From: a virus
IMG/VR virus record: IMGVR_UViG_3300022934_000210
Coordinates: 1-22,673 of that record
DNA length: 22,673 bases
Strand: one strand, 5' to 3'
Part shown: positions 2,366 through 19,214 of the stretch, piece by piece
Numbering within the stretch: position 1 is the stretch's first letter
How the letters are laid out: each line of letters begins with the position of its first letter
Program-made: the position numbers and the translations under genes
The notes under the pieces: generated by a model
Databases searched by the model: none
What the model saw: only the letters and a program-made list of their open reading frames with translations
Told to the model about the DNA's origin: nothing

Positions 2366-3563
2366 GCAAATACTTGGTTTTTGTCTGAACAACGACTTCT
2401 TTAGTCGCGTAAAGAACATAGTAGACCGAACTATGTTTGAAAAAGAGATGCGTGACATTTTTGACACACTGACATATGCACACACTAAGTACGGCAATGA
2501 CCTGACAGTAAACGAACTGGCAAGCCTATTCAATGACCGTAACCCTGCTATGCCAGAAGCTACCCGCAACAAGGTGCATGAGACTATTGCAACCTTAGAT
2601 GTTGGTAACGCTGACAATGCTGACCTGCACCTAGACCTTGTGCATAATTTCTGGTTGCGTGATCGTGCGCGGCAGATAGGTGAGAAGGCCATTGAGATAT
2701 TTACAGGGGACAGTGAGGAGTTTGGTGAGTTACGCCGCTTGATTGAAACTGTAGAAGACGGACGCATCAGCGACAAGACTACATATACAAAAGTTGAAGA
2801 TGACCTTGATTCCTTGTTGGATAATGAGGCGGGTGATCCTGACTTCCCTTTTAGCTATGACCTGATCTCAGAGCATGTGGGTGGCCTAGATCGGGGTAAC
2901 TTAGGTATCTTGTTTGCCCGTCCAGAAGTTGGTAAGACAACGTTCTGCTGTTTCCTTGCGGCATCCTACATAAAGCAGGGTTTCAAGGTTGTGTATTGGG
3001 CTAACGAGGAACCCGCACCAAAGATTAAGTTGCGTATTATTCAGTCGTACTTTGGTTTAACACGGGCAGAAATGATCAGCGATAGACGTGCCTTATCTGC
3101 TAAGTACATTGATGAAATATCACCTTTGCTCACCATCATGGATTCAGTTGGCACATCAGTCGAGGAAGTCGATGAGTACGCCAAGCTGAACAAACCTGAT
3201 ATCATGTTCTGTGACCAGCTAGATAAGTTTCGTATTGCTGGCGAGTTCAATCGTGGAGATGAACGCCTCAAGGAAACCTATGTGGTTGCACGAGAAATAG
3301 CTAAAAGAAACAAGGCGTTAGTGTGGGCTGTTAGTCAGGCAAATTATGAGGCACACGACAGACAGTGGATTGACTATTCGATGTTGGACAACTCACGCAC
3401 GGGCAAGGCTGGTGAGGCTGACATAATCATAGGCATAGGTAAGACAGGATCTAGTGAGATAGAAAATACCGTTCGTCACATCTGCATATCCAAGAACAAA
3501 CTCAACGGGTGGCACGGTATGATCAACGGACAAATTGACATTGATCGTGGGATATACTACTGA
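2334..3563 (+). CDS. Replicative DNA helicase, DnaB/gp4-like RecA fold
   Basis: A 409-residue hexameric-type helicase that would unwind DNA ahead of the polymerase. The N-terminal 150 residues resemble the DnaB N-terminal helical domain (DRQILGFCLNNDFF). The RecA-like core has Walker A FARPEVGKTTF (about 194-204, matching the DnaB ARPxxGKT form), the catalytic Glu region YWANEE (221-226), Walker B IMFCDQLD (290-297) and the H3 motif WAVSQAN with Q335. ATG 2334 follows GAGGAAAGAG, a strong ribosome binding site within the end of the primase gene, so the two are translationally coupled. The stop overlaps the HNH gene start (TGATG). Family assignment is secure; closeness to DnaB versus T7 gp4 is less so. 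Confidence 0.9.
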   Translation: MSSYDPTSIDRQILGFCLNNDFFSRVKNIVDRTMFEKEMRDIFDTLTYAHTKYGNDLTVNELASLFNDRNPAMPEATRNKVHETIATLDVGNADNADLHLDLVHNFWLRDRARQIGEKAIEIFTGDSEEFGELRRLIETVEDGRISDKTTYTKVEDDLDSLLDNEAGDPDFPFSYDLISEHVGGLDRGNLGILFARPEVGKTTFCCFLAASYIKQGFKVVYWANEEPAPKIKLRIIQSYFGLTRAEMISDRRALSAKYIDEISPLLTIMDSVGTSVEEVDEYAKLNKPDIMFCDQLDKFRIAGEFNRGDERLKETYVVAREIAKRNKALVWAVSQANYEAHDRQWIDYSMLDNSRTGKAGEADIIIGIGKTGSSEIENTVRHICISKNKLNGWHGMINGQIDIDRGIYY

Positions 3564-3874
3564 TGGTGTTCAATGCAGAGAGTAAGAAGCGGTGGATGCG
3601 GCGCAGAAAGGCACGGCGAAAACACTGGTTAAACAAATATAAACTAGCTAAGTCTTGTGAATTATGCGGATATAATAAAAGCCCTTATGCCTTACACTTT
3701 GATCACTTAAATTCAAGCACAAAGGTAAAAGCTGTATCTCGTATGATAATGGGGTCATTGAAAACCTTGATGCTTGAACTTCGTAAGTGCCGTGTGCTAT
3801 GTGCTAACTGTCACTTCGTTGTATCTGCTGAAGAAGAACTTAGAAAGGCCGGACATGAACGTATTGACTTTTGA
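3563..3874 (+). CDS. HNH endonuclease, free-standing, 103 aa
   Basis: A small basic protein with the zinc-HNH layout: C32-x2-C35, the catalytic D47-H48 in HFDHLNS, and the C-terminal LCANCH with C80, N82, C83 and H84. The first 30 residues are very rich in Arg and Lys, which suits DNA binding. It lies between helicase and DNA polymerase, overlapping the first by one base and the second by 20. Such HNH proteins in phages can be homing endonucleases that spread next to polymerase genes, or can aid packaging or host DNA degradation. The sequence does not decide between these. Codon use looks like its neighbours apart from a slightly A-rich middle. Confidence 0.85.
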   Translation: MVFNAESKKRWMRRRKARRKHWLNKYKLAKSCELCGYNKSPYALHFDHLNSSTKVKAVSRMIMGSLKTLMLELRKCRVLCANCHFVVSAEEELRKAGHERIDF

Positions 3875-4439
3875 TGTGGAAACAACACACATACACAAGG
3901 ATAATGGTGGCACCACTGCCCTGCCGTACTTCGGTAACAGGCTCGTGTCTATTGGGTACAAACGTTTGTCATTACCCTACATACACTACCACTGCTACTA
4001 TCATGCAGACAGAGAAGCCCACGACTTTGCACCAGAATTATTTCAAGAGGCACTTGACGAAGCTGACATGGTTGTGGGACAAAACATCAAGTTCGATTTA
4101 TCATGGATACGGGAATGTGGGTTCGTTTACGATGGCGAGATATTTGATACGATGGTGGCGGAATACGTTCTTGCCAAAGCCCAGCGTTGGCCTCTTGGAC
4201 TTGCTTCTCTTGCAGAAAAGTATGACGTTACCCGCAAGGAGAAGGACCTTGTCGAGCCGTATCTTAAAGATGGTAAGACGTTCTACGATATACCGTGGGA
4301 GATAGTAGAAGAGTACGGTAAAGCTGACGTACTAGCTACAGAAGAAATAGCATTGAAACAGCTTGAAGCCTTTGGCACTACCTTTGAGGAACTATATAAT
4401 GCAACGAACTTTACTACCAACCTTGAGACTGTCGCTTGA
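3855..4439 (+). CDS. DNA polymerase family A, 3'-5' exonuclease part (split gene)
   Basis: A 194-residue proofreading domain. All three exonuclease motifs are visible: ExoI FDVETT (D7, E9), ExoII VGQNIKFDL (N77, D81) and ExoIII EEYGKADVL (Y154, D158). ATG 3855 has AGAAAGG upstream and lies within the end of the HNH gene. In relatives such as T7 gp5 and HMO-2011, this domain is joined to the polymerase. Here the frame ends at TGA 4437-4439 while the rest continues in the +1 frame. Sequence similarity to a full-length enzyme seems to end near N185; the last nine residues would be out of frame. The part may work as a separate subunit, be joined by +1 frameshifting, or be broken by a mutation or sequencing error. 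Confidence 0.85.
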   Translation: MNVLTFDVETTHIHKDNGGTTALPYFGNRLVSIGYKRLSLPYIHYHCYYHADREAHDFAPELFQEALDEADMVVGQNIKFDLSWIRECGFVYDGEIFDTMVAEYVLAKAQRWPLGLASLAEKYDVTRKEKDLVEPYLKDGKTFYDIPWEIVEEYGKADVLATEEIALKQLEAFGTTFEELYNATNFTTNLETVA

Positions 4440-5940
4440 GATGACAGACGTTCTGGCTCGTATGGAGCGGAACGGATTGAAGATAAACTTAGACACACTA
4501 GAAGAAATACGGCAAGAGTATCAGCGTGAAATGGACGAACTAGAGGTTCGCCTAGAACGCCTTGCACGGGACGCTATGGGGGATACCCCTGTCAACTTAT
4601 CTAGCCCCGATGACAGGAGCGTGTTGCTCTATTCACGGCGTGTTAAAGACAAGAAGACATGGTCACGCATATTTAACTTAGGTCACGAAATGCGCGGCAA
4701 CACGATGAAACCCAAGCAACGAACTCGTATGAAGCGTGGTGAGTTTAAATCTGCAGTTAAGAACATGACTGACGTTGTGTACAAGACACGAGGCTCACAG
4801 TGTGATGGGTGCAGGGGTGAAGGACGTGTACGCCCCCTGAGAAAAGATGGCACACAAGGTAAGGCCGTTCGTATATGTAAGCGGTGTAATGGTGCAGGTG
4901 TCTTGTACATACCTACAGGAAAGGTTGCCGGATTTAAGATCATACCACGTGACCCAATGGATACAGCGGCGGCTGGGTTTAGGACTGACAAGGTTACGCT
5001 TGACAATATTTCAAGCAATTTATCGGGGGATGCAAAGGAGTTCGTTACAGCGTACGTTCGTTACAATGCGTTACGAACTTACCTGTCCACATTTGTAGAA
5101 GGAATGAAGAACAATGTTGATGCGAATGGTTTCATCCATCCAGAATTCATGCAGTGTATTACGGCGACGGGTCGTCTTTCGTCTAGGAATCCTAACTTTC
5201 AGAATATGCCGCGTGGAAATACCTTCGCTATACGGAAGGTTGTCGAGAGCCGCTTCACGGGTGGCTTTATACTTGAAGGGGATTACTCGCAACTAGAATT
5301 CAGGGTGGCTGGCTTTCTTGCAAAGGACGGTCAAGCGTACATTGATGTAAAGGATGGTACAGATGTTCACAGCTATACTGCAAGCATTATCGGATGCACA
5401 CGTCAAGAAGCAAAGGCACACACGTTCAAGCCTCTCTATGGCGGCGTTACTGGAACAGATGATCAGCAACGTTACTACCGTGCGTTCAAAGAAAAGTACG
5501 AGGGTGTCACAGAGTGGCACAAGGAACTACAGAAAGAAGCCGTACGCAAGAAAGTTATAACTTTACCAAGTGGTAGGCAATATGCTTTCCCAACAGCTAA
5601 GTGGACTGAGTGGGGAACTGCAACGAACCGTACGGCTATCTGTAACTATCCAGTGCAGGGGTTTGCAACAGCCGACTTGTTGCCAGCCGCTCTGGTTCGC
5701 CTAGATAAAATGATGCGTACAAGAAATTTAAATTCTGTAATCTGCAACACTGTGCACGATTCGATTGTGCTTGATGTACACCCAGATGAAAAAGAGGCTT
5801 GCATCAATCTGTTAGCCTATGCTATGCGTAGTTTACCCGAAGAGACGATGAACAGGTACGGTGTCGAATATGACATGCCTGTAGGAATCGAACTAAAAAT
5901 AGGCAAAAATTGGCTTGACTCAGAAGAAATAGATGTGTAA
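4399..5940 (+). CDS. DNA polymerase family A, polymerase part with DnaJ-like zinc module
   Basis: A 513-residue chain if started at ATG 4399, which has GAGGA 8 bases upstream (the only in-frame start further up is a TTG at 4363). It contains motif A GDYSQLEFRV (D295), the O-helix R335-x3-K339-x3-F343-x3-Y347 (RQEAKAHTFKPLYGG) and motif C VHDSIVLDV (H453, D454). At residues 135-166 there is an inserted zinc module with two CxxCxGxG units (CDGCRGEG, CKRCNGAG), half of a DnaJ cysteine-rich region. This insertion is the known mark of HMO-2011-type polymerases. The residue equal to E. coli Pol I 762 is Phe. Overlap with the exonuclease part is 41 bases in another frame; joined by one skipped base they give 694 residues. 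Confidence 0.9.
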   Translation: MQRTLLPTLRLSLEMTDVLARMERNGLKINLDTLEEIRQEYQREMDELEVRLERLARDAMGDTPVNLSSPDDRSVLLYSRRVKDKKTWSRIFNLGHEMRGNTMKPKQRTRMKRGEFKSAVKNMTDVVYKTRGSQCDGCRGEGRVRPLRKDGTQGKAVRICKRCNGAGVLYIPTGKVAGFKIIPRDPMDTAAAGFRTDKVTLDNISSNLSGDAKEFVTAYVRYNALRTYLSTFVEGMKNNVDANGFIHPEFMQCITATGRLSSRNPNFQNMPRGNTFAIRKVVESRFTGGFILEGDYSQLEFRVAGFLAKDGQAYIDVKDGTDVHSYTASIIGCTRQEAKAHTFKPLYGGVTGTDDQQRYYRAFKEKYEGVTEWHKELQKEAVRKKVITLPSGRQYAFPTAKWTEWGTATNRTAICNYPVQGFATADLLPAALVRLDKMMRTRNLNSVICNTVHDSIVLDVHPDEKEACINLLAYAMRSLPEETMNRYGVEYDMPVGIELKIGKNWLDSEEIDV

Positions 5941-9399: not shown

Positions 9400-11328
9400 A
9401 TGAGCAACATGTTACCCACACCATATCAACAATTCATTCACAAGTCACGCTATGCACGGTGGCTGGACGACGAACAGCGTCGTGAGAACTGGGATGAGAC
9501 TGTGGATCGATACGTCGATTTCATGATCAATCAGGTTCAAGGTAAGTGCAATGTTAAATTAGATAATAAAGTAGTCGAACAGATTCGGGAAGGTATTCTG
9601 AGTCTAGATGTGATGCCATCTATGAGGGCCATGATGACTGCAGGGCCAGCGTTGGCTCGTGACAACATCTGCGGCTATAATTGTAGTTACATTCCTGTCG
9701 ATAGCCCTCGTGCGTTCGATGAATGTATGTATATTTTAATGTGTGGTACTGGTGTAGGCTTTAGTGTGGAGAGAGAGAATGTTGACAAGCTTCCTGTGGT
9801 GTCTGACAATTTTGACGTATCTAGCATCGTTATCACAGTAGGTGATAGTAAGCCGGGATGGGCAAAAGCTTTGCGTGAACTAATCGCGCTACTGTACGCC
9901 GGACAGATTCCCACATGGGATATGTCAAACGTACGTCCATCAGGTGAGCGTCTCAAGATTATGGGTGGACGTGCATCAGGCCCACAGCCTCTTGCAGATC
10001 TGTTTACGTTCGTTGTAGAAACATTCAAGAAAGCAAAAGGTCGTCGGTTGTTCCCTGTCGAATGCCACGACTTGATGTGTAAGATTGGTGAGATTGTAGT
10101 TGTGGGTGGCGTTCGTCGCTCTGCCTTGATTAGCCTATCTAACTTGAACGATGATCAGATGGCACACGCCAAGTCGGGTATGTGGTGGGAGACAGAGCCA
10201 CAACGTGCGTTGGCTAACAACTCTGTAGCCTACAAGCAGAAGCCTGAGATGGGTACGTTCATGCGTGAGTGGCTTGCGCTGTACGACAGTAAGTCTGGTG
10301 AGCGTGGTATGTTCAACCGTGAAGCAGCAGACAAGCAAGTAGGCCGCAACGGACGCCGTGAGCAAGGCCACATGTGGGGAACGAACCCGTGTTCAGAGAT
10401 TATCCTGCGTGGCTATCAGTTCTGTAATCTGTCAGAGGTTGTTGTTCGTGAAACGGACTCACTAGATGATTTGAAGAGTAAGGTTCGTTTAGCTACAATT
10501 CTTGGAACCCTTCAGTCTACCTTGACAGACTTCAAGTATTTGAGGAAGGTATGGAAAGACAACACAGAGGAAGAGCGTTTGTTAGGCGTATCCTTGACTG
10601 GTATCATGGATCATCCCGTGCTTTCAAAGAACGTAGACAGCAAGCGTTGGCTAGAAGAAATGCGTCAAACAGCCGTAGATACAAACAAGAAGTTTGCGAA
10701 CATGCTTGGAATACCTCAGAGTGCAGCAATCACTTGTGTAAAACCGTCGGGTACTGTATCTCAACTCGTGGACGCGGCTAGTGGTATTCACGCACGGCAC
10801 AACGATTACTTTATTCGTACGGTTCGTGGTGACAACAAAGACCCGTTGACACAGTTCCTTATCGAAAGCGGTGTGCACAACGAGCGTGACATGATGAAGC
10901 CAGACTCTACAACAGTCTTTAGCTTCCCTATGAAGTCACCAGAGGGTGCAGTAACTCGTACACAGATGACTGCTATTGAACAGCTAGAACTGTGGAAGAC
11001 GTATGCGATTCATTGGTGTGAACACAAACCCTCTATCACTGTGTCTGTTAAAGAACACGAGTGGATGGATGTAGGTGCGTGGGTGTATGAGAACTTTGAC
11101 GTGGCATCAGGTGTATCGTTCTTGCCGCACAGCGATCATACCTATCAGCAAGCCCCGTACCAAGACATCGAACCAGATGAATACTTGGAATGGAAGAAGC
11201 TGTACGAAGGTGTGGTTATCGACTGGAACAAGCTTTCTGAGTTTGAAAAGGAAGACAATACCAGCGGATCACGGGAACTTGCCTGTACTGCTGGCGTGTG
11301 TGAAGTAGTGGACTTGAACGCGGCATGA
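9400..11328 (+). CDS. nrdJ: Class II (adenosylcobalamin-dependent) ribonucleotide reductase, monomeric type
   Basis: A 642-residue enzyme that would reduce ribonucleoside triphosphates to deoxy forms for phage replication, using vitamin B12 coenzyme. It resembles the monomeric Lactobacillus leichmannii RTPR. NPCSEIILRGYQFC gives the thiyl-radical Cys C331, the general-base Glu E333 and the redox Cys C342, exactly 11 residues after C331 as in C408/C419. The partner Cys is C91 or C95 (NICGYNC). A C-terminal C629-x4-C634 pair (ACTAGVC) matches the reducing pair C731/C736. It is about 100 residues shorter than the L. leichmannii enzyme. A strong GAGGAATAAG site precedes ATG 9400. B12 dependence implies a host that makes or imports cobalamin. 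Confidence 0.92.
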   Translation: MSNMLPTPYQQFIHKSRYARWLDDEQRRENWDETVDRYVDFMINQVQGKCNVKLDNKVVEQIREGILSLDVMPSMRAMMTAGPALARDNICGYNCSYIPVDSPRAFDECMYILMCGTGVGFSVERENVDKLPVVSDNFDVSSIVITVGDSKPGWAKALRELIALLYAGQIPTWDMSNVRPSGERLKIMGGRASGPQPLADLFTFVVETFKKAKGRRLFPVECHDLMCKIGEIVVVGGVRRSALISLSNLNDDQMAHAKSGMWWETEPQRALANNSVAYKQKPEMGTFMREWLALYDSKSGERGMFNREAADKQVGRNGRREQGHMWGTNPCSEIILRGYQFCNLSEVVVRETDSLDDLKSKVRLATILGTLQSTLTDFKYLRKVWKDNTEEERLLGVSLTGIMDHPVLSKNVDSKRWLEEMRQTAVDTNKKFANMLGIPQSAAITCVKPSGTVSQLVDAASGIHARHNDYFIRTVRGDNKDPLTQFLIESGVHNERDMMKPDSTTVFSFPMKSPEGAVTRTQMTAIEQLELWKTYAIHWCEHKPSITVSVKEHEWMDVGAWVYENFDVASGVSFLPHSDHTYQQAPYQDIEPDEYLEWKKLYEGVVIDWNKLSEFEKEDNTSGSRELACTAGVCEVVDLNAA

Positions 11329-12374: not shown

Positions 12375-15300
12375 CTATTGAGAAATTGTTTCTAGTTCAA
12401 ACTGTGTTTGCTGCTCTCTCTGTGCATCTTGCTGTGCAGCTAAGATAGCTTCTTGTGGAACGAACTCAGGTGCCTTATCTCCTGACTCGTATATTGATCT
12501 AGCCAAGAATGATTTAGCTAGAACTGTAAATCGTTGGATATCGTCTTGTGTGACTTCTCCCGGAGTCTCAAGCACCTTACGTAAGATACCTGCTGCCTCT
12601 TTGTTTGATGCTGCAAGTTGCAAAGCGTTAATCTCGTTGTGTGACATTACACGGACAGCGAACTCTGCCGCAACGTAGGTCGGGCTAACCATACCACGAG
12701 CAATGTTAAACGCACGGCTGATAACTTCGTTTGGAGATATACCGCGAATCTGTCCCTTTGGTGCGAACTGTGTAGCGGCTGCACCAGAAGCGTACATCAT
12801 GTATTCGCTGATGTCTTGCATGAAGCTTATGTGATCTTCATCCATAAACTCTTCTAGGATAGCAGTGACGTTTGGATTGTCTAGATCAGCGTGAAGGCTG
12901 GCTGCATCTGTCAGGGTTTCCACAGTTCGTTTCTTACCATCAAGAGCCTTGAAAGTTATCTTATCATTAGCCTGTTTACCTGCACGTGCTAACAAACCAT
13001 TCATCAGCATGTACCGCATACCCTCATTAAACTCTTGTAGGGCATCTTCTTGAGACATGCCAGTGCTTACCATCGTATCAACGAACTCTGCCTTTAAGCC
13101 CTGCATCAAACTAACGTCATTATTTAATACGTACTTTTCATAGAATCGTAATGCGTCTTTTTCGCCAGATAGTTGTTCAAACTGCTGGACAGTCCGCTTT
13201 CTAAGACCTACAGCTTCTGCAGCAATTGTCCCCATGTCTCCTACTACACCGTTGATCTCGTCTGTAAATTCTTTGTATTGTTGACGGAGACTTTTGCTAA
13301 CAGCCATCAAGTCTACAATATCCTGTTCTTGAGCAATCACCTCAGTCAAATCAACTAATGGGCGTTGTACTGCTGGGCCATCACCTTCTTTGACCATAAC
13401 TTGAATGTTCGGGTTTACTCTATCTAAGAAGTTTACTGCTGCATCGAAATTGTACGTTCCTGACGGTAGATCATTGTTCAGAAGATCTGCACGAACAGCG
13501 TCACGCAATCCCTTTTCCTTTGCAGCACCCCAGTATTCATGTAGGTTTGCTCTGATCAGGTTTTGAACATTTTCAAACTTTGCACGTCCTCTGTCTGTTG
13601 TCAGATCAAATACAATGTTACCTGCTTCGTCTCTATCTCCCCAGAAACGAACTAGATCGTCCATCATGTTTCTAAGCTTATCAGATGCAAACGCCTTATC
13701 GTTCATTGCATTATCTATAGCTACAGCAAGATCTTTGTGCCAAGTCTCTGGTTCACTGCCCAGCTTGTAAGGTGCCCGTCTGCCGCCCGGTGTTCTTGTA
13801 ACGAATTCAGGACCGCTCCTTGCATTTGCAATCTGGTCACCCTTGCTGCTCATGCGAATCGGATCAAATATCAAATCCCGGTATGTGTCCCGTGCAAGTT
13901 GTACTTCAGCAAAAACTTCAGGATCTGCTCTCAGGGCATCATCAAACAAGTTCGCTGCATCTCTGTACGGCTTTGCCATCTTGTCGTCTTGTATCGATGC
14001 AGCTTTCTTGGCAAAGTGTCTGCGAACCTCATCTACTTCAAACGGTTTAGCTACGAACGGCGCAAACCCACTACCTTCTTTCGCACTAAAGTGTAAGGCC
14101 ATGTCTACAAACGAAACCTGATCACCTAAGAAATCGGGATTAGCTTTGCCATCTGCAAGGCGAGGTGTCGTAACCCACTCGACCAACTCAGACAAATCTT
14201 CATCGTCTAGTTCCATGTTCTTACGCAACGAACGCTCTGCCATATCGTTGAAAGCATTGAACGCCATGCGACCAGATCGACCACTCAAGAACTCTGCTTG
14301 AGCACTAAACAAACCACGCAGAGATTTGGAGTCTATTTCACCCTGTGATTGTACAAGTGCGTTTATGGCACCCCTGATATCGATATCACGGTCACCGATG
14401 ACTTCATCTGCTTTTGTATAAGCATTTCGTGCAAGAGCGTAGATGCTGGACATGTGAGCGTCGTAGATATCTTCTTGTAAGATACCCAACTGTCGGCGGT
14501 GTTCTGCCGTTCCTCTGAGGCCCTTTATAGCTTCAGCACGTTCGTTTAAGGCCAGAGATACCTCCGCTGCATTTTTTAGGATTATCTCGCGCTTTGCTTT
14601 GATATCCATTGCTGCATTAGGAGACAGAGCAATTTCCATTTCTGCCAATCTATTTACGATGTCGGCGTCTATCTCTACATCAGGATTGGATAGCATGTTC
14701 GCTTTGTAACTTCTAAGGGCTTCCATGTACTGAACTTTTCTGTTGGCAATGTTCATGCGTTCAGCATCTGCCGCTGCTTCAAAGTTCTTTACCCAGCCAG
14801 CTATAAACTTACTATCGTCAGGATCTACGCCTGTAGCCATAGAAATTTCTTTTAAACGATTGATAGCAAGGCTTGCCTGTTCTAGTGCGTTTTCACTTTG
14901 CATCTGAAATTGAACAGCATCCGACAACTCCTGCCCTTTTACATTTTTAAGAGCGTTGAACTCTAGGGCTTGAAGAGGTGCTAACCCTGATATGTGAGCA
15001 AAGGAAAGCTGGAACACCCTATCGGCTTCTTCCCGTGCTTCTCCGTCTGGGAACCTTGAAAGTATTCTGTCTTTTAGTTCGATGTAGTTGTCGATAGATT
15101 TGTAGACCAATTCTTGTTGTTGTGGGTCTAGCTGTTTCATCATTTTATCAAGAAGCTTTACAGATGCTAATTCTTTGCCCTTTAGACGACGACCTAGTGA
15201 TGCTTCCATTTCTGCCACATCTCTGTTTACCAAAAGACCCGTTGGTATAGGTGAAATATTTTCTAGGAATTCACCTATATTAGAACCTATAGAATTAACC

Positions 15301-16769
15301 AGCGGTATTTTTGCTATAAATCTAGCTGGTCCGCCTACGACTTTATTTATTGTTGGTCTTCCACCAAAAGCAAATCCTAGTGCACCTATCATGCCACCTG
15401 TCTCCGGCTCTATTCCAAGAAGACCGGGTAGCAAGTTATAACCTGTTGTCTGACCAATTGCGATAACTGCTTCATCTACGAACAGGTTGAACATGTAAGG
15501 GTTAGATGCACCGTTGTATATCAGTCTGTTTCTTCGGGCTTGTAATCTGTCGATATCGCCGCGCAAGACTATTGCGTCATTACCCTTTTTAGTAGCAAGT
15601 TCTTTTGTCTTTTTGTCTATTGCTGCGTTTAAGTCTTTTATATTTTGACGGGCAGTTTGATTTGTTTGTGCAGCCCCTATAGGACCACGATTGTTCAGAG
15701 TAGCACCTATTCCGGCTGTCATTTTTCGCCAGTATTTAGTAAAGGTGTTTGTTTTTTCTTGTATCTCTTTGTTTCTTATGAAAGTTACCGGATCCATCAG
15801 GGCAACTTTTCTATCGGTTTTGGCAGCAGTTTCGTACACACCTAGTTGCTTCTTGCCCTTTTGTAAATGAACAAGACCGAATGCGCCGCTAATAGGAGCG
15901 TTTAATGCAAGGAACGACAGCCCCTGTTCGCCTGTAGTCAGTTCGCCAAACCCAAAGTCTAGCATCTCTTCGCCTACACCCGGCGGTATCATAGGGAGTT
16001 CTAGTCTACCCATACCTTCTATTTCAGGATTGTACGTATCTTCGTATGCTACTTGCCCGTACTTCTCAATGAACTTTTCTTTGAACCTGTCGTTCATTAC
16101 GTCGTCGTAGGTCGCACTAATTCCAAACTCATCCATCTGCGAACGATAATTTGCAAAAGCTTCCGCCACTAGGGGTTGTCTCTTAGCCCACGCTTCTTCC
16201 CAAGTCACATCACCTGACATAGATTCAAACGCAGCAGGAGCAACGTGCATACCTAGAACCTGAAGATAGTTCGGTACGTTAGCCAAGAATCTAGGTGTCT
16301 CTGCTAATTGTGCACCTGTTTCAGAAAAGAACTCGCCTGTACGGTAGTAGTCAATGATCAAGTCACGAACTCGTGGATCTTTAATCTTGGGATCTAGGAA
16401 CGAGAACAACCGCTTCCGATTCTCCACGTAATCTTCCGCCGTTTCTTTTTGACTTTCAGACAGGCTATCAGGAAGGTTCGTTTCGATACCTTCGTCCGTC
16501 ACCTTTGTAAAAGCAATAGGCGACTGAACTGGTGCCATCTTTGCAGAGTCTATCTCACCTAAGATGTACCGCTGTGCTTTCTGATCACCTTGCCTTGCCC
16601 TGTCTATTGTAAACTGAGGTATTTCGAACCCGTTGATTACAGTAGACGAACCTGATAGGACCTCATCGTAGGTCGGAACCTTTGACGTATCAGGGGAAAG
16701 CGACTCCACCGCTTTACTTTGTAGAGATAGTGGTAGATTAGCTGTAGGTGTTCTTTGAATCTGATTCAT
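12375..16769 (-). CDS. Very large internal virion / DNA-ejection-type protein, 1464 aa
   Basis: The longest gene of the window, starting at ATG 16769 and following the 813-aa gene after 3 bases. The 1464-residue product (MNQIQRTPTANLPLSLQSKA...) is mostly predicted helical and charged, with many Glu, Lys, Ala and Leu stretches. A more hydrophobic, Gly-rich region lies around residues 430-490 (GGMIGALGFAFGG, IAKIPLVNSIG). I see no lysozyme, protease or polymerase motif. In T7-like phages the giant proteins at the end of the structural block (gp15, gp16) form the internal core and are injected to build a DNA channel. Size, position and composition fit this class, but direct homology is not recognised. 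Confidence 0.65.
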   Translation of the reverse strand: MNQIQRTPTANLPLSLQSKAVESLSPDTSKVPTYDEVLSGSSTVINGFEIPQFTIDRARQGDQKAQRYILGEIDSAKMAPVQSPIAFTKVTDEGIETNLPDSLSESQKETAEDYVENRKRLFSFLDPKIKDPRVRDLIIDYYRTGEFFSETGAQLAETPRFLANVPNYLQVLGMHVAPAAFESMSGDVTWEEAWAKRQPLVAEAFANYRSQMDEFGISATYDDVMNDRFKEKFIEKYGQVAYEDTYNPEIEGMGRLELPMIPPGVGEEMLDFGFGELTTGEQGLSFLALNAPISGAFGLVHLQKGKKQLGVYETAAKTDRKVALMDPVTFIRNKEIQEKTNTFTKYWRKMTAGIGATLNNRGPIGAAQTNQTARQNIKDLNAAIDKKTKELATKKGNDAIVLRGDIDRLQARRNRLIYNGASNPYMFNLFVDEAVIAIGQTTGYNLLPGLLGIEPETGGMIGALGFAFGGRPTINKVVGGPARFIAKIPLVNSIGSNIGEFLENISPIPTGLLVNRDVAEMEASLGRRLKGKELASVKLLDKMMKQLDPQQQELVYKSIDNYIELKDRILSRFPDGEAREEADRVFQLSFAHISGLAPLQALEFNALKNVKGQELSDAVQFQMQSENALEQASLAINRLKEISMATGVDPDDSKFIAGWVKNFEAAADAERMNIANRKVQYMEALRSYKANMLSNPDVEIDADIVNRLAEMEIALSPNAAMDIKAKREIILKNAAEVSLALNERAEAIKGLRGTAEHRRQLGILQEDIYDAHMSSIYALARNAYTKADEVIGDRDIDIRGAINALVQSQGEIDSKSLRGLFSAQAEFLSGRSGRMAFNAFNDMAERSLRKNMELDDEDLSELVEWVTTPRLADGKANPDFLGDQVSFVDMALHFSAKEGSGFAPFVAKPFEVDEVRRHFAKKAASIQDDKMAKPYRDAANLFDDALRADPEVFAEVQLARDTYRDLIFDPIRMSSKGDQIANARSGPEFVTRTPGGRRAPYKLGSEPETWHKDLAVAIDNAMNDKAFASDKLRNMMDDLVRFWGDRDEAGNIVFDLTTDRGRAKFENVQNLIRANLHEYWGAAKEKGLRDAVRADLLNNDLPSGTYNFDAAVNFLDRVNPNIQVMVKEGDGPAVQRPLVDLTEVIAQEQDIVDLMAVSKSLRQQYKEFTDEINGVVGDMGTIAAEAVGLRKRTVQQFEQLSGEKDALRFYEKYVLNNDVSLMQGLKAEFVDTMVSTGMSQEDALQEFNEGMRYMLMNGLLARAGKQANDKITFKALDGKKRTVETLTDAASLHADLDNPNVTAILEEFMDEDHISFMQDISEYMMYASGAAATQFAPKGQIRGISPNEVISRAFNIARGMVSPTYVAAEFAVRVMSHNEINALQLAASNKEAAGILRKVLETPGEVTQDDIQRFTVLAKSFLARSIYESGDKAPEFVPQEAILAAQQDAQREQQTQFELETISQ

Positions 16770-16772
16770 AGG

Positions 16773-19214
16773 TTACGCACCTGTTCCCGGTTTCTTGACG
16801 TATCTTCCGTTCTTTACGATGTACAATCCCGGCAATGTTTCTCCGGTTTGTTTATCCTGTAAGGTTAAACCACTGAGGTTATTACCATCGATCACAGTGA
16901 CCAACTCTGGATTTAAACCTTGTACGATACGAGGGCCAGCAGGTTGTGGTGGGGCACCTGCTGTACCATTGTCGCTTTGAATCTCCGCATTTGCTTCAGG
17001 TTCAGGTGTTTTTACTACGCCTTGTTGTTGTTCTGGTGCAGTCACAGTCTCTGCAGCCGGAGTCGCCGGAGCCGCCGGAGCCTGTGTAGTGGCAGGAGCA
17101 GTAGCAGGTGCTTGAGTTTGAGTAGACGACCTCAAGTTATCCGCTGTGAGAGGCTTGATATTTTCAACAACAGCCCCGTCTTTGTTGACGTACACGTTTT
17201 GTCCATCCTGCTTAACAGGATTACCATCTTCACCTATTGCTATGTATACAGCAGAACCATCTTCTGCAACGGCACTAGATGATAGTTGATTCGGTTGCGG
17301 TGGAGCGTACGCAGTTACAGGTGCGGCTACATCTAGGTAGTTAGCGTAGCTTAGATACCCTGCTTTCTTTGCTAGTCTATCTACTGCATAAACCCCGCGA
17401 ATTAGTTTCTTAGATCCAACTGTTGCTTTTGAAGTGGCATCTCCAGCTATTTCAATGATAGCACCATATCTCTGTTTCTTTACTTCAAAGTCTTTAATAG
17501 CAACTTCAAGACGTGCCTTCATCGACTTGACGGTATCAAAGTTCTTACCTAAACGAACAAGCTGTGCTTCGATATCTTGGTTAGATAAACGACCTGATGG
17601 ATCAGCAGCACGTGCCATCTGGAATGCAAGGGCTATTCGTATAGCTTCGAATCGTGCGTATCTTGCACCTGCTTCTGCTATAGTTTCACCCGGCTTTCGT
17701 TTAGAATTCATACCTGTGATTCGGGCTTGTTCTATCCGGCTGTTTAATCCTGAGATGTATTCAGTTGTAAGGAACTCTACGGGATCACCGTTATCATCTA
17801 CTTCAGCAACTCTTCTCTGCGCTTCAGCGGCACTAACTATATTAGAATTAGGGGCAAGGTCTGCTACATCTGCCTTTTGAAGATTGGGTGATTCATCGCC
17901 TACAAGGGCTGTAAAGATTGCACCTGCAGAAGCAAGCTTGCCCTTAATCATGTCTAGTCCGGGTGGGCCAACAAAGTCGTTCTCGACCATAGCTTTGAGG
18001 CCGTACAGACCTGTTTGTTGCGCCTCACTGCCTAGTGTATCGGTTAGTTCTTGATCTAGGGTGACCAGCTTATCGAAGTCTTCTTCTTTTGCTTCCCGAC
18101 CAAATATAGTCTTTGCAGCATAAAGCTTTGTAGTGATAGCCTCATCTACATATTCAAATCCAGTATCAGGATTCCAGTTATCTAGATGCTGAAATGCACC
18201 GAACACGTAGGCCATACCAATAGGATCATTGTTTACTTTATTGCTTACTGTCTGTATCAATTCTTTCGCATCTTGAGGTCGCATAGTATTGATAGCAACG
18301 TTCTTAGTAGGAAATACCAAGCCTCTTTTTGCGTAATCTTGTGCAATATCACGTGCAGCATCAAAGTACATCTGTCTTTCGTCTTTACTTCTTCCGCCAG
18401 CTTGAGACGTGTACTGTGCCCACACATTCGGTAGAGCGTTTATGTCCGTCCGTAAAGACATACCCAATTGTGCGTAACCAAACTGGTTGTCTGCTATACC
18501 ACTCATAGTAATAACGTTACCAAAGTTAGCCGGATCAACGGCTGCTGGTGTCCCGGTGCCTTGTGCATATGCTTGGTTCAAGATAGAATAATTTGGATCT
18601 TGTGTTCTTAGGCGCATCACTTTATCAAACTCTTGGGCTGGACCGAACATGGTCATGTCCATTTGAACTGTGTTACCAGCCTGTTTGTTTGCATTGTAGC
18701 TGTTCATTATAAATGCAGCGTGACCTTTGTACAGGTTTACGACTTCATTTATGACAGGTTCAGGTGCGGTGGCAAGCTTTTGCAAAGCGACTGGATTGGT
18801 AAACAAACGGGAGTTCATTTCAGCAATAGCTGCGTTACTGTCGCCTGTTCCAAACTTTCTAACGTCTACACCAAACCCAAATTCATAGTCACCCGATCCA
18901 ATTAGTGATTCATAGGTTCCTGCTTTTTGTATGGCAGTCTGTGCTTTTGCCAAGTCGATATCGATACCGTCTGTAGCACGACCAAAGATGTCTATGTTAG
19001 GACGGTCATCTATCTTTTGTTGGGCAGATTTGATTATGTCAGAAACGGCACCATAGCCTTTCTTTGTTGCTTTTCCTTCCAACAAAGATTTCAAGGCCAT
19101 TGTTTCGATGCCATCTAGCTTTTCCTGTTCGCCTAAACGACGCTGCTTTTCTGCATCAATATTTTCACGGAAGCCTTTGACTAGGCCCATTGCAAACGCT
19201 GCACCAATACCCAT
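16773..19214 (-). CDS. Large internal virion-type protein, 813 aa
   Basis: It starts at ATG 19214, one base after the stop of the 184-aa gene, and encodes 813 residues. The N-terminus (MGIGAAFAMGLVKGFREN) has a short hydrophobic, Gly/Ala-rich segment and then a long helical region with many Lys, Glu and Ala (LAKAQTAIQKAGTYE). Near the C-terminus a disordered linker of about 64 residues (698-761) is rich in Ala, Pro, Thr and Gln (QAPATAPATTQAPAAPATPA), followed by a small beta-like end domain (NPELVTVIDGNN, LPGLYIVKNGRYV). No enzyme motif is visible. Position between smaller virion genes and the 1464-aa protein suggests an ejection or inner-core protein like T7 gp15, which is inference. Confidence 0.65.
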   Translation of the reverse strand: MGIGAAFAMGLVKGFRENIDAEKQRRLGEQEKLDGIETMALKSLLEGKATKKGYGAVSDIIKSAQQKIDDRPNIDIFGRATDGIDIDLAKAQTAIQKAGTYESLIGSGDYEFGFGVDVRKFGTGDSNAAIAEMNSRLFTNPVALQKLATAPEPVINEVVNLYKGHAAFIMNSYNANKQAGNTVQMDMTMFGPAQEFDKVMRLRTQDPNYSILNQAYAQGTGTPAAVDPANFGNVITMSGIADNQFGYAQLGMSLRTDINALPNVWAQYTSQAGGRSKDERQMYFDAARDIAQDYAKRGLVFPTKNVAINTMRPQDAKELIQTVSNKVNNDPIGMAYVFGAFQHLDNWNPDTGFEYVDEAITTKLYAAKTIFGREAKEEDFDKLVTLDQELTDTLGSEAQQTGLYGLKAMVENDFVGPPGLDMIKGKLASAGAIFTALVGDESPNLQKADVADLAPNSNIVSAAEAQRRVAEVDDNGDPVEFLTTEYISGLNSRIEQARITGMNSKRKPGETIAEAGARYARFEAIRIALAFQMARAADPSGRLSNQDIEAQLVRLGKNFDTVKSMKARLEVAIKDFEVKKQRYGAIIEIAGDATSKATVGSKKLIRGVYAVDRLAKKAGYLSYANYLDVAAPVTAYAPPQPNQLSSSAVAEDGSAVYIAIGEDGNPVKQDGQNVYVNKDGAVVENIKPLTADNLRSSTQTQAPATAPATTQAPAAPATPAAETVTAPEQQQGVVKTPEPEANAEIQSDNGTAGAPPQPAGPRIVQGLNPELVTVIDGNNLSGLTLQDKQTGETLPGLYIVKNGRYVKKPGTGA

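Follow-up and report, generated by a model that had tools for sequence, protein, structure and literature searches.

Two overlapping genes for the exonuclease and polymerase of a family A DNA polymerase: probable old fission of a replicative enzyme in a marine phage lineage

In the viral DNA analysed here (the window, 22,673 nucleotides), the proofreading exonuclease and the polymerase of a family A DNA polymerase are carried by two overlapping genes. The most probable explanation, to which we give a probability of about 0.8 from comparison with relatives, is an old and inherited fission of this phage replicative (Pol I-type) enzyme, resulting in a two-protein proofreading polymerase. At the level of the genes, the comparative sequence evidence demonstrates that the two are separate, conserved and under selection, and that the polymerase has its own start signal and is translated independently of the exonuclease. 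We infer that the two chains bind non-covalently and act as one proofreading polymerase in a Klenow arrangement. A sequence-only reading of the window had left four options, namely a genuine two-chain polymerase, programmed +1 frameshifting, a recent mutation, or a sequencing or assembly error; the first is the one that the comparisons support.

Organization of the two genes

The exonuclease ORF extends from ATG3855 to TGA4439 (194 aa). The polymerase frame is open from 4363, and its ORF runs from ATG4399 to the stop at 5940 (513 aa). Since 4399-3855 = 544, the polymerase lies in the +1 frame relative to the exonuclease, and the two ORFs overlap by 41 nt. All exonuclease motifs had been placed in one frame (3855-4439) and all polymerase motifs in the +1 frame (to 5940), and both ORFs were indeed found complete. 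The proposal that a separate 513-aa polymerase could be made from ATG 4399, with GAGGA 8 nt upstream, also agreed with our reading in start, spacing and length. Skipping T4410 had been suggested as a way to join the frames; joined here at a slightly different base, they do yield a protein of 694 aa. An intron or insertion at the window's junction was ruled out, as the ORFs overlap with nothing between them. The main features are as follows.

3855..4439, + strand: gene 1, DEDDy 3'-5' exonuclease chain, 194 aa (PF01612; AF2 pTM 0.86; closest solved structure, the exonuclease domain of E. coli Pol I)
3873..3881, + strand: Exo I, DxE (D7, E9), invariant in all relatives, split or fused, that cover the position
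4083..4097, + strand: Exo II, N77..D81, invariant (223/223 split)
4314..4328, + strand: Exo III, Y154..D158, invariant (223/223 split)
4386..4390, + strand: Shine-Dalgarno-like GAGGA for gene 2, within gene 1, 8 nt before ATG4399 (SD match of at least 4 nt at 249/259 split loci)
4399..4439, + strand: ORF overlap, 41 nt, exonuclease C-terminal tail out of frame with the polymerase N-terminus; polymerase frame constrained (rough dN/dS 0.07), exonuclease tail not; exonuclease residues 185-194 with pLDDT <50
4399..5940, + strand: gene 2, 513 aa, the family A polymerase chain, comprising thumb, palm and fingers plus a DnaJ-type zinc insert (PF00476; AF2 pTM 0.75; nearest fold, Bst Pol I large fragment)
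4801..4824, + strand: first CXXCXGXG motif (C135, C138), invariant
4876..4899, + strand: second CXXCXGXG motif (C160, C163), invariant
5278..5301, + strand: motif A, GDYSQLEF (D295), invariant
5401..5445, + strand: motif B / O-helix, RQEAKAHTFKPLYGG (Phe at the 762 position)
5752..5763, + strand: motif C, VHDS (D454)

The exonuclease chain matches PF01612 in Pfam (E 1.4e-11) and is annotated by PHROGs as a Pol I 3'-5' exonuclease, the best match being phrog_17, a fused DNA polymerase (E 1.7e-23). The DEDDy residues of proofreading family A polymerases (D7, E9, D81, Y154 and D158) are all present, on a separate chain. The polymerase chain matches PF00476 (E 1.9e-51), and PHROGs also call it a family A polymerase. 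It contains the Pol A domain, motifs A, B and C and the catalytic Asp; D295, K339 and D454 are invariant, as are the four zinc cysteines, which are located in this chain. Invariance of the catalytic residues of both chains and of the zinc cysteines refers to 223 aligned split sequences, gaps at truncated ends aside. The partial DnaJ domain typical of HMO-2011-type DNA polymerases (DNAPs), which separates exonuclease from polymerase and carries two CXXCXGXG motifs, was found; the single polypeptide comprising exonuclease and polymerase was not found in the window.

The two chains were folded separately in AF2. Each was confidently folded alone and matched the corresponding domain of solved Pol I. 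For the exonuclease, the best solved match was E. coli Pol I, with a further resemblance to stand-alone DEDD nucleases such as NrnC; its tail (residues 185-194) is predicted to be disordered. In the polymerase model the first helix begins at residue 6, which places the cut in a linker, and the best solved match was the Bst Pol I large fragment. According to these models, the cut follows the final helix of the exonuclease and precedes the first one of the thumb, and each protein is thus predicted to be a complete fold.

Primase and DnaB-like helicase genes lie upstream of the exonuclease, in the HMO-2011-type order. An HNH endonuclease-like gene (3563-3874, + strand) is located between helicase and exonuclease; HNH homologues were observed immediately ahead of the exonuclease gene in 46 matches, each of them at a split locus. 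Further downstream, a class II ribonucleotide reductase (9400-11328, + strand) is 70% identical to that of HMO-2011, as compared to 42% for the polymerase, reflecting either uneven divergence or mosaicism. One structural-side protein of the partial window matches HTVC033P and HMO-2011. Two very large proteins of 1464 and 813 aa (12375-16769 and 16773-19214, - strand) gave no match in the phage collection.

Distribution of split and fused polymerases

A first search recovered 80 relatives at 73-100% identity, and all those covering the exonuclease region (77/77) displayed the same +1 split. In the HTVC033P-like set, 79 of 80 polymerases are fused. In the exception, L161, the frame is broken at a single place within the exonuclease domain, probably through an assembly error. 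Closeness-ranked searches alone are biased with respect to the group boundary. Therefore, a DNA-pattern scan not ranked by closeness was added, which together with further searches brought the number of distinct polymerase sequences that include an exonuclease region to 428. L161 left aside, 259 of these are split loci. Counted as distinct sequences, not as independent events, relatives whose polymerase is at least 60% identical to that of the window are all split (202 split, 0 fused), with the same +1 relation in 202/202; between 50 and 60%, 57 are split (L161 excluded) and 46 fused; below 50%, all are fused (122/122). By this comparison the split arrangement is far beyond chance, since it recurs in every relative above 60% identity.

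All cultured HMO-2011-type phages examined (11/11) have one fused ORF. A natural split had been expected to be unusual in this phage group, which holds for the cultured phages, but not for the large uncultured lineage to which the window belongs. Cellular genomes gave only 3 distant matches (43-48%), and a search of plasmids for relatives gave nothing close.

These data bear on the idea of a sequencing or assembly error, or of a recent disabling mutation, in one contig. Such errors do occur in the data set, as exemplified by the frame break of L161. However, the same junction is found at about 260 distinct loci, which refutes both an error and a recent mutation. Moreover, both halves are under strong purifying selection, with dN/dS values of 0.10 for the exonuclease, 0.087 for the polymerase and 0.07 for the first polymerase codons (these values, about 0.1 for both chains, are rough because dS is high). 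We consider this explanation to have a negligible probability.

Start of polymerase translation

Among the 259 split loci, the polymerase start codon is ATG in 219, TTG in 34 and GTG in 6. A Shine-Dalgarno (SD) match of at least 4 nt precedes the chosen start at 249/259 loci versus 374/2299 internal ATGs, a contrast that is inflated, as the start-choosing script favoured ATG and SD. The SD-like motif and the start codon are conserved while the encoded residues differ between subclades (FEELYN, LKEWATQ, WPNKESLV). Analysis of site variability revealed that the frame under codon constraint changes at the polymerase start codon, from that of the exonuclease to that of the polymerase: until about 16 nt upstream of the ATG the third positions of exonuclease codons vary, and from about 15 nt downstream of it the third positions of polymerase codons do. 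The loci used here were chosen for a 41-nt overlap, so that conservation of the stop codon itself is built in. Past the polymerase ATG, the exonuclease tail is unconstrained in its own frame.

These observations are consistent with a mechanism in which gene 1 would be translated as the first ORF, and ribosomes would start separately at ATG4399 for gene 2, using the SD embedded in gene 1. The overlap probably leads to translational coupling, and the two chains would then associate into a Klenow-like proofreading enzyme. Judging from the sequence, a low level of a frameshifted exonuclease-polymerase fusion product may be made besides the two chains.

Alternative explanations

Programmed +1 frameshifting would join both frames into one 694-aa polymerase, a normal-looking enzyme, and the relation is indeed +1 in the window and in most split loci. 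However, it is +2 in 22 distinct loci, which are deeper members with mostly a 4-nt overlap, and overlap lengths range from 4 to 68 nt among split loci (4, 8, 11, 17, 23, 29, 35, 41, 44 nt and others). When the relatives' junctions were compared, the CTTTA stretch was not kept even among close relatives of the window and no conserved slippery site was found. Relatives one base shorter in CTTTA, which would give a single frame, were also looked for among these sequences, and none was found. Three loci from two lineages carry intact genes between exonuclease and polymerase: a 146-aa PDDEXK gene (PDDEXK_14 family) in L362 (4419-4859), and four to five small ORFs over about 1.2 kb in L366 and L399. 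No single frameshift could therefore join the two halves there. Conservation of the polymerase SD and start codon also argues against a shift, as does the onset of polymerase-frame constraint at the start codon, though a shift at that place could also give this. With neither a conserved shift site nor one constant frame relation, and with whole genes between the ORFs in some relatives, programmed frameshifting is strongly disfavoured; we rejected it for the lineage and consider it very improbable for the window.

An exonuclease acting alone, in recombination, end processing or nucleotide recycling, would leave the polymerase in effect proofreading-free. The ability of the chain to fold alone, its resemblance to DEDD nucleases such as NrnC and the separation of the genes in some relatives are in line with this. 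On the other hand, adjacency and gene order are kept at nearly all split loci, the best match is the exonuclease domain of Pol I, and all fused relatives keep both domains together. Altogether, we consider an independent exonuclease unlikely, and a two-protein proofreading polymerase is preferred.

History of the split

A tree built from 89 polymerase sequences placed the split loci in one clade (SH-aLRT 100). This first tree left out L364, a fused but partial sequence, for its length; when added later, L364 fell inside the split clade. It stands for about 40 fused loci (L364, L435-L479) of about 55% identity. A concatenated exonuclease-polymerase tree likewise nested L435, a fused representative of this group, inside the split clade. 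The history may thus include re-fusion or several fissions, and the L364-like loci may represent a re-fusion. Nevertheless, a single clade of all split loci was not rejected (AU p 0.166), and the junction helix of the L364-like group is MNE, as in some other fused phages, whereas it is LSxEM in split loci. A history of more than one independent fission, or of a single fission that the L364-like group later reversed by re-fusion, is given somewhat less than even chances against one fission; either history is compatible with the two-gene mechanism.

A broader picture can be drawn, which we hold tentatively and at just short of even odds: within one large lineage of marine phages, the proofreading domain of a replicative family A polymerase would have become a subunit of its own; fused relatives survive, junctions vary, genes were inserted between the halves and re-fusion possibly occurred.

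Comparison with known systems

The HMO-2011-type DNAPs (HMO-2011, HTVC033P and CRP phages) share with the window the exonuclease, the family A polymerase and the partial DnaJ zinc domain that carries two CXXCXGXG motifs, and these phages also have primase and helicase upstream of the polymerase. Polymerase identity between the window and the cultured members is 39-49%. The cultured phages encode one ORF of 678-716 aa, whereas the window has two genes. A survey of HMO-2011-type phages described a DNAP that unites exonuclease, DnaJ and polymerase domains; for its tree, DNAPs >540 aa with at least 80% coverage were kept (PMC9038755), a cut-off that a 513-aa chain would not pass.

In all members of the Kuravirus-like phages (e.g. 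Escherichia phage YF01, gp49/gp70), polymerase and 3'-5' exonuclease are encoded separately (PMC9965538); their genes are distant, whereas those of the window overlap, and its phage group still includes fused relatives. The OM43 phages MEP401 and MEP402 have a DNAP in two ORFs with a small ORF inserted, for which the authors suspected an intron (PMC10580990). These phages and Vibrio phage ICP2, relatives of the HMO-2011 group, resemble the window in their two-ORF DNAP, but the break lies inside the polymerase domain, unlike that of the window, which falls exactly between exonuclease and polymerase. Finally, the window exonuclease matches PHROG 403 and 192, 'DNA polymerase exonuclease subunit' (E 3.5e-11 and 3.5e-5), less well than the fused phrog_17. 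Separate exonuclease and polymerase proteins are thus already known in other phages. The overlapping-gene split in HMO-2011-type relatives appears to be new: searches of a literature collection that covers few subscription papers gave no report of it.

Significance

Phage family A polymerases normally contain their own proofreading activity; in hundreds of uncultured marine phages it is encoded as a second protein. Marker-gene surveys are affected, since length filters such as >540 aa would exclude the 513-aa split polymerases. Because the enzyme occurs naturally in both split and fused relatives, it is testable how covalent linkage affects fidelity and processivity. If the exonuclease is indeed a separate subunit of the polymerase, these phages would provide a natural series for studying replicase fission and a possible tuning of phage mutation rate by a proofreader that can detach.
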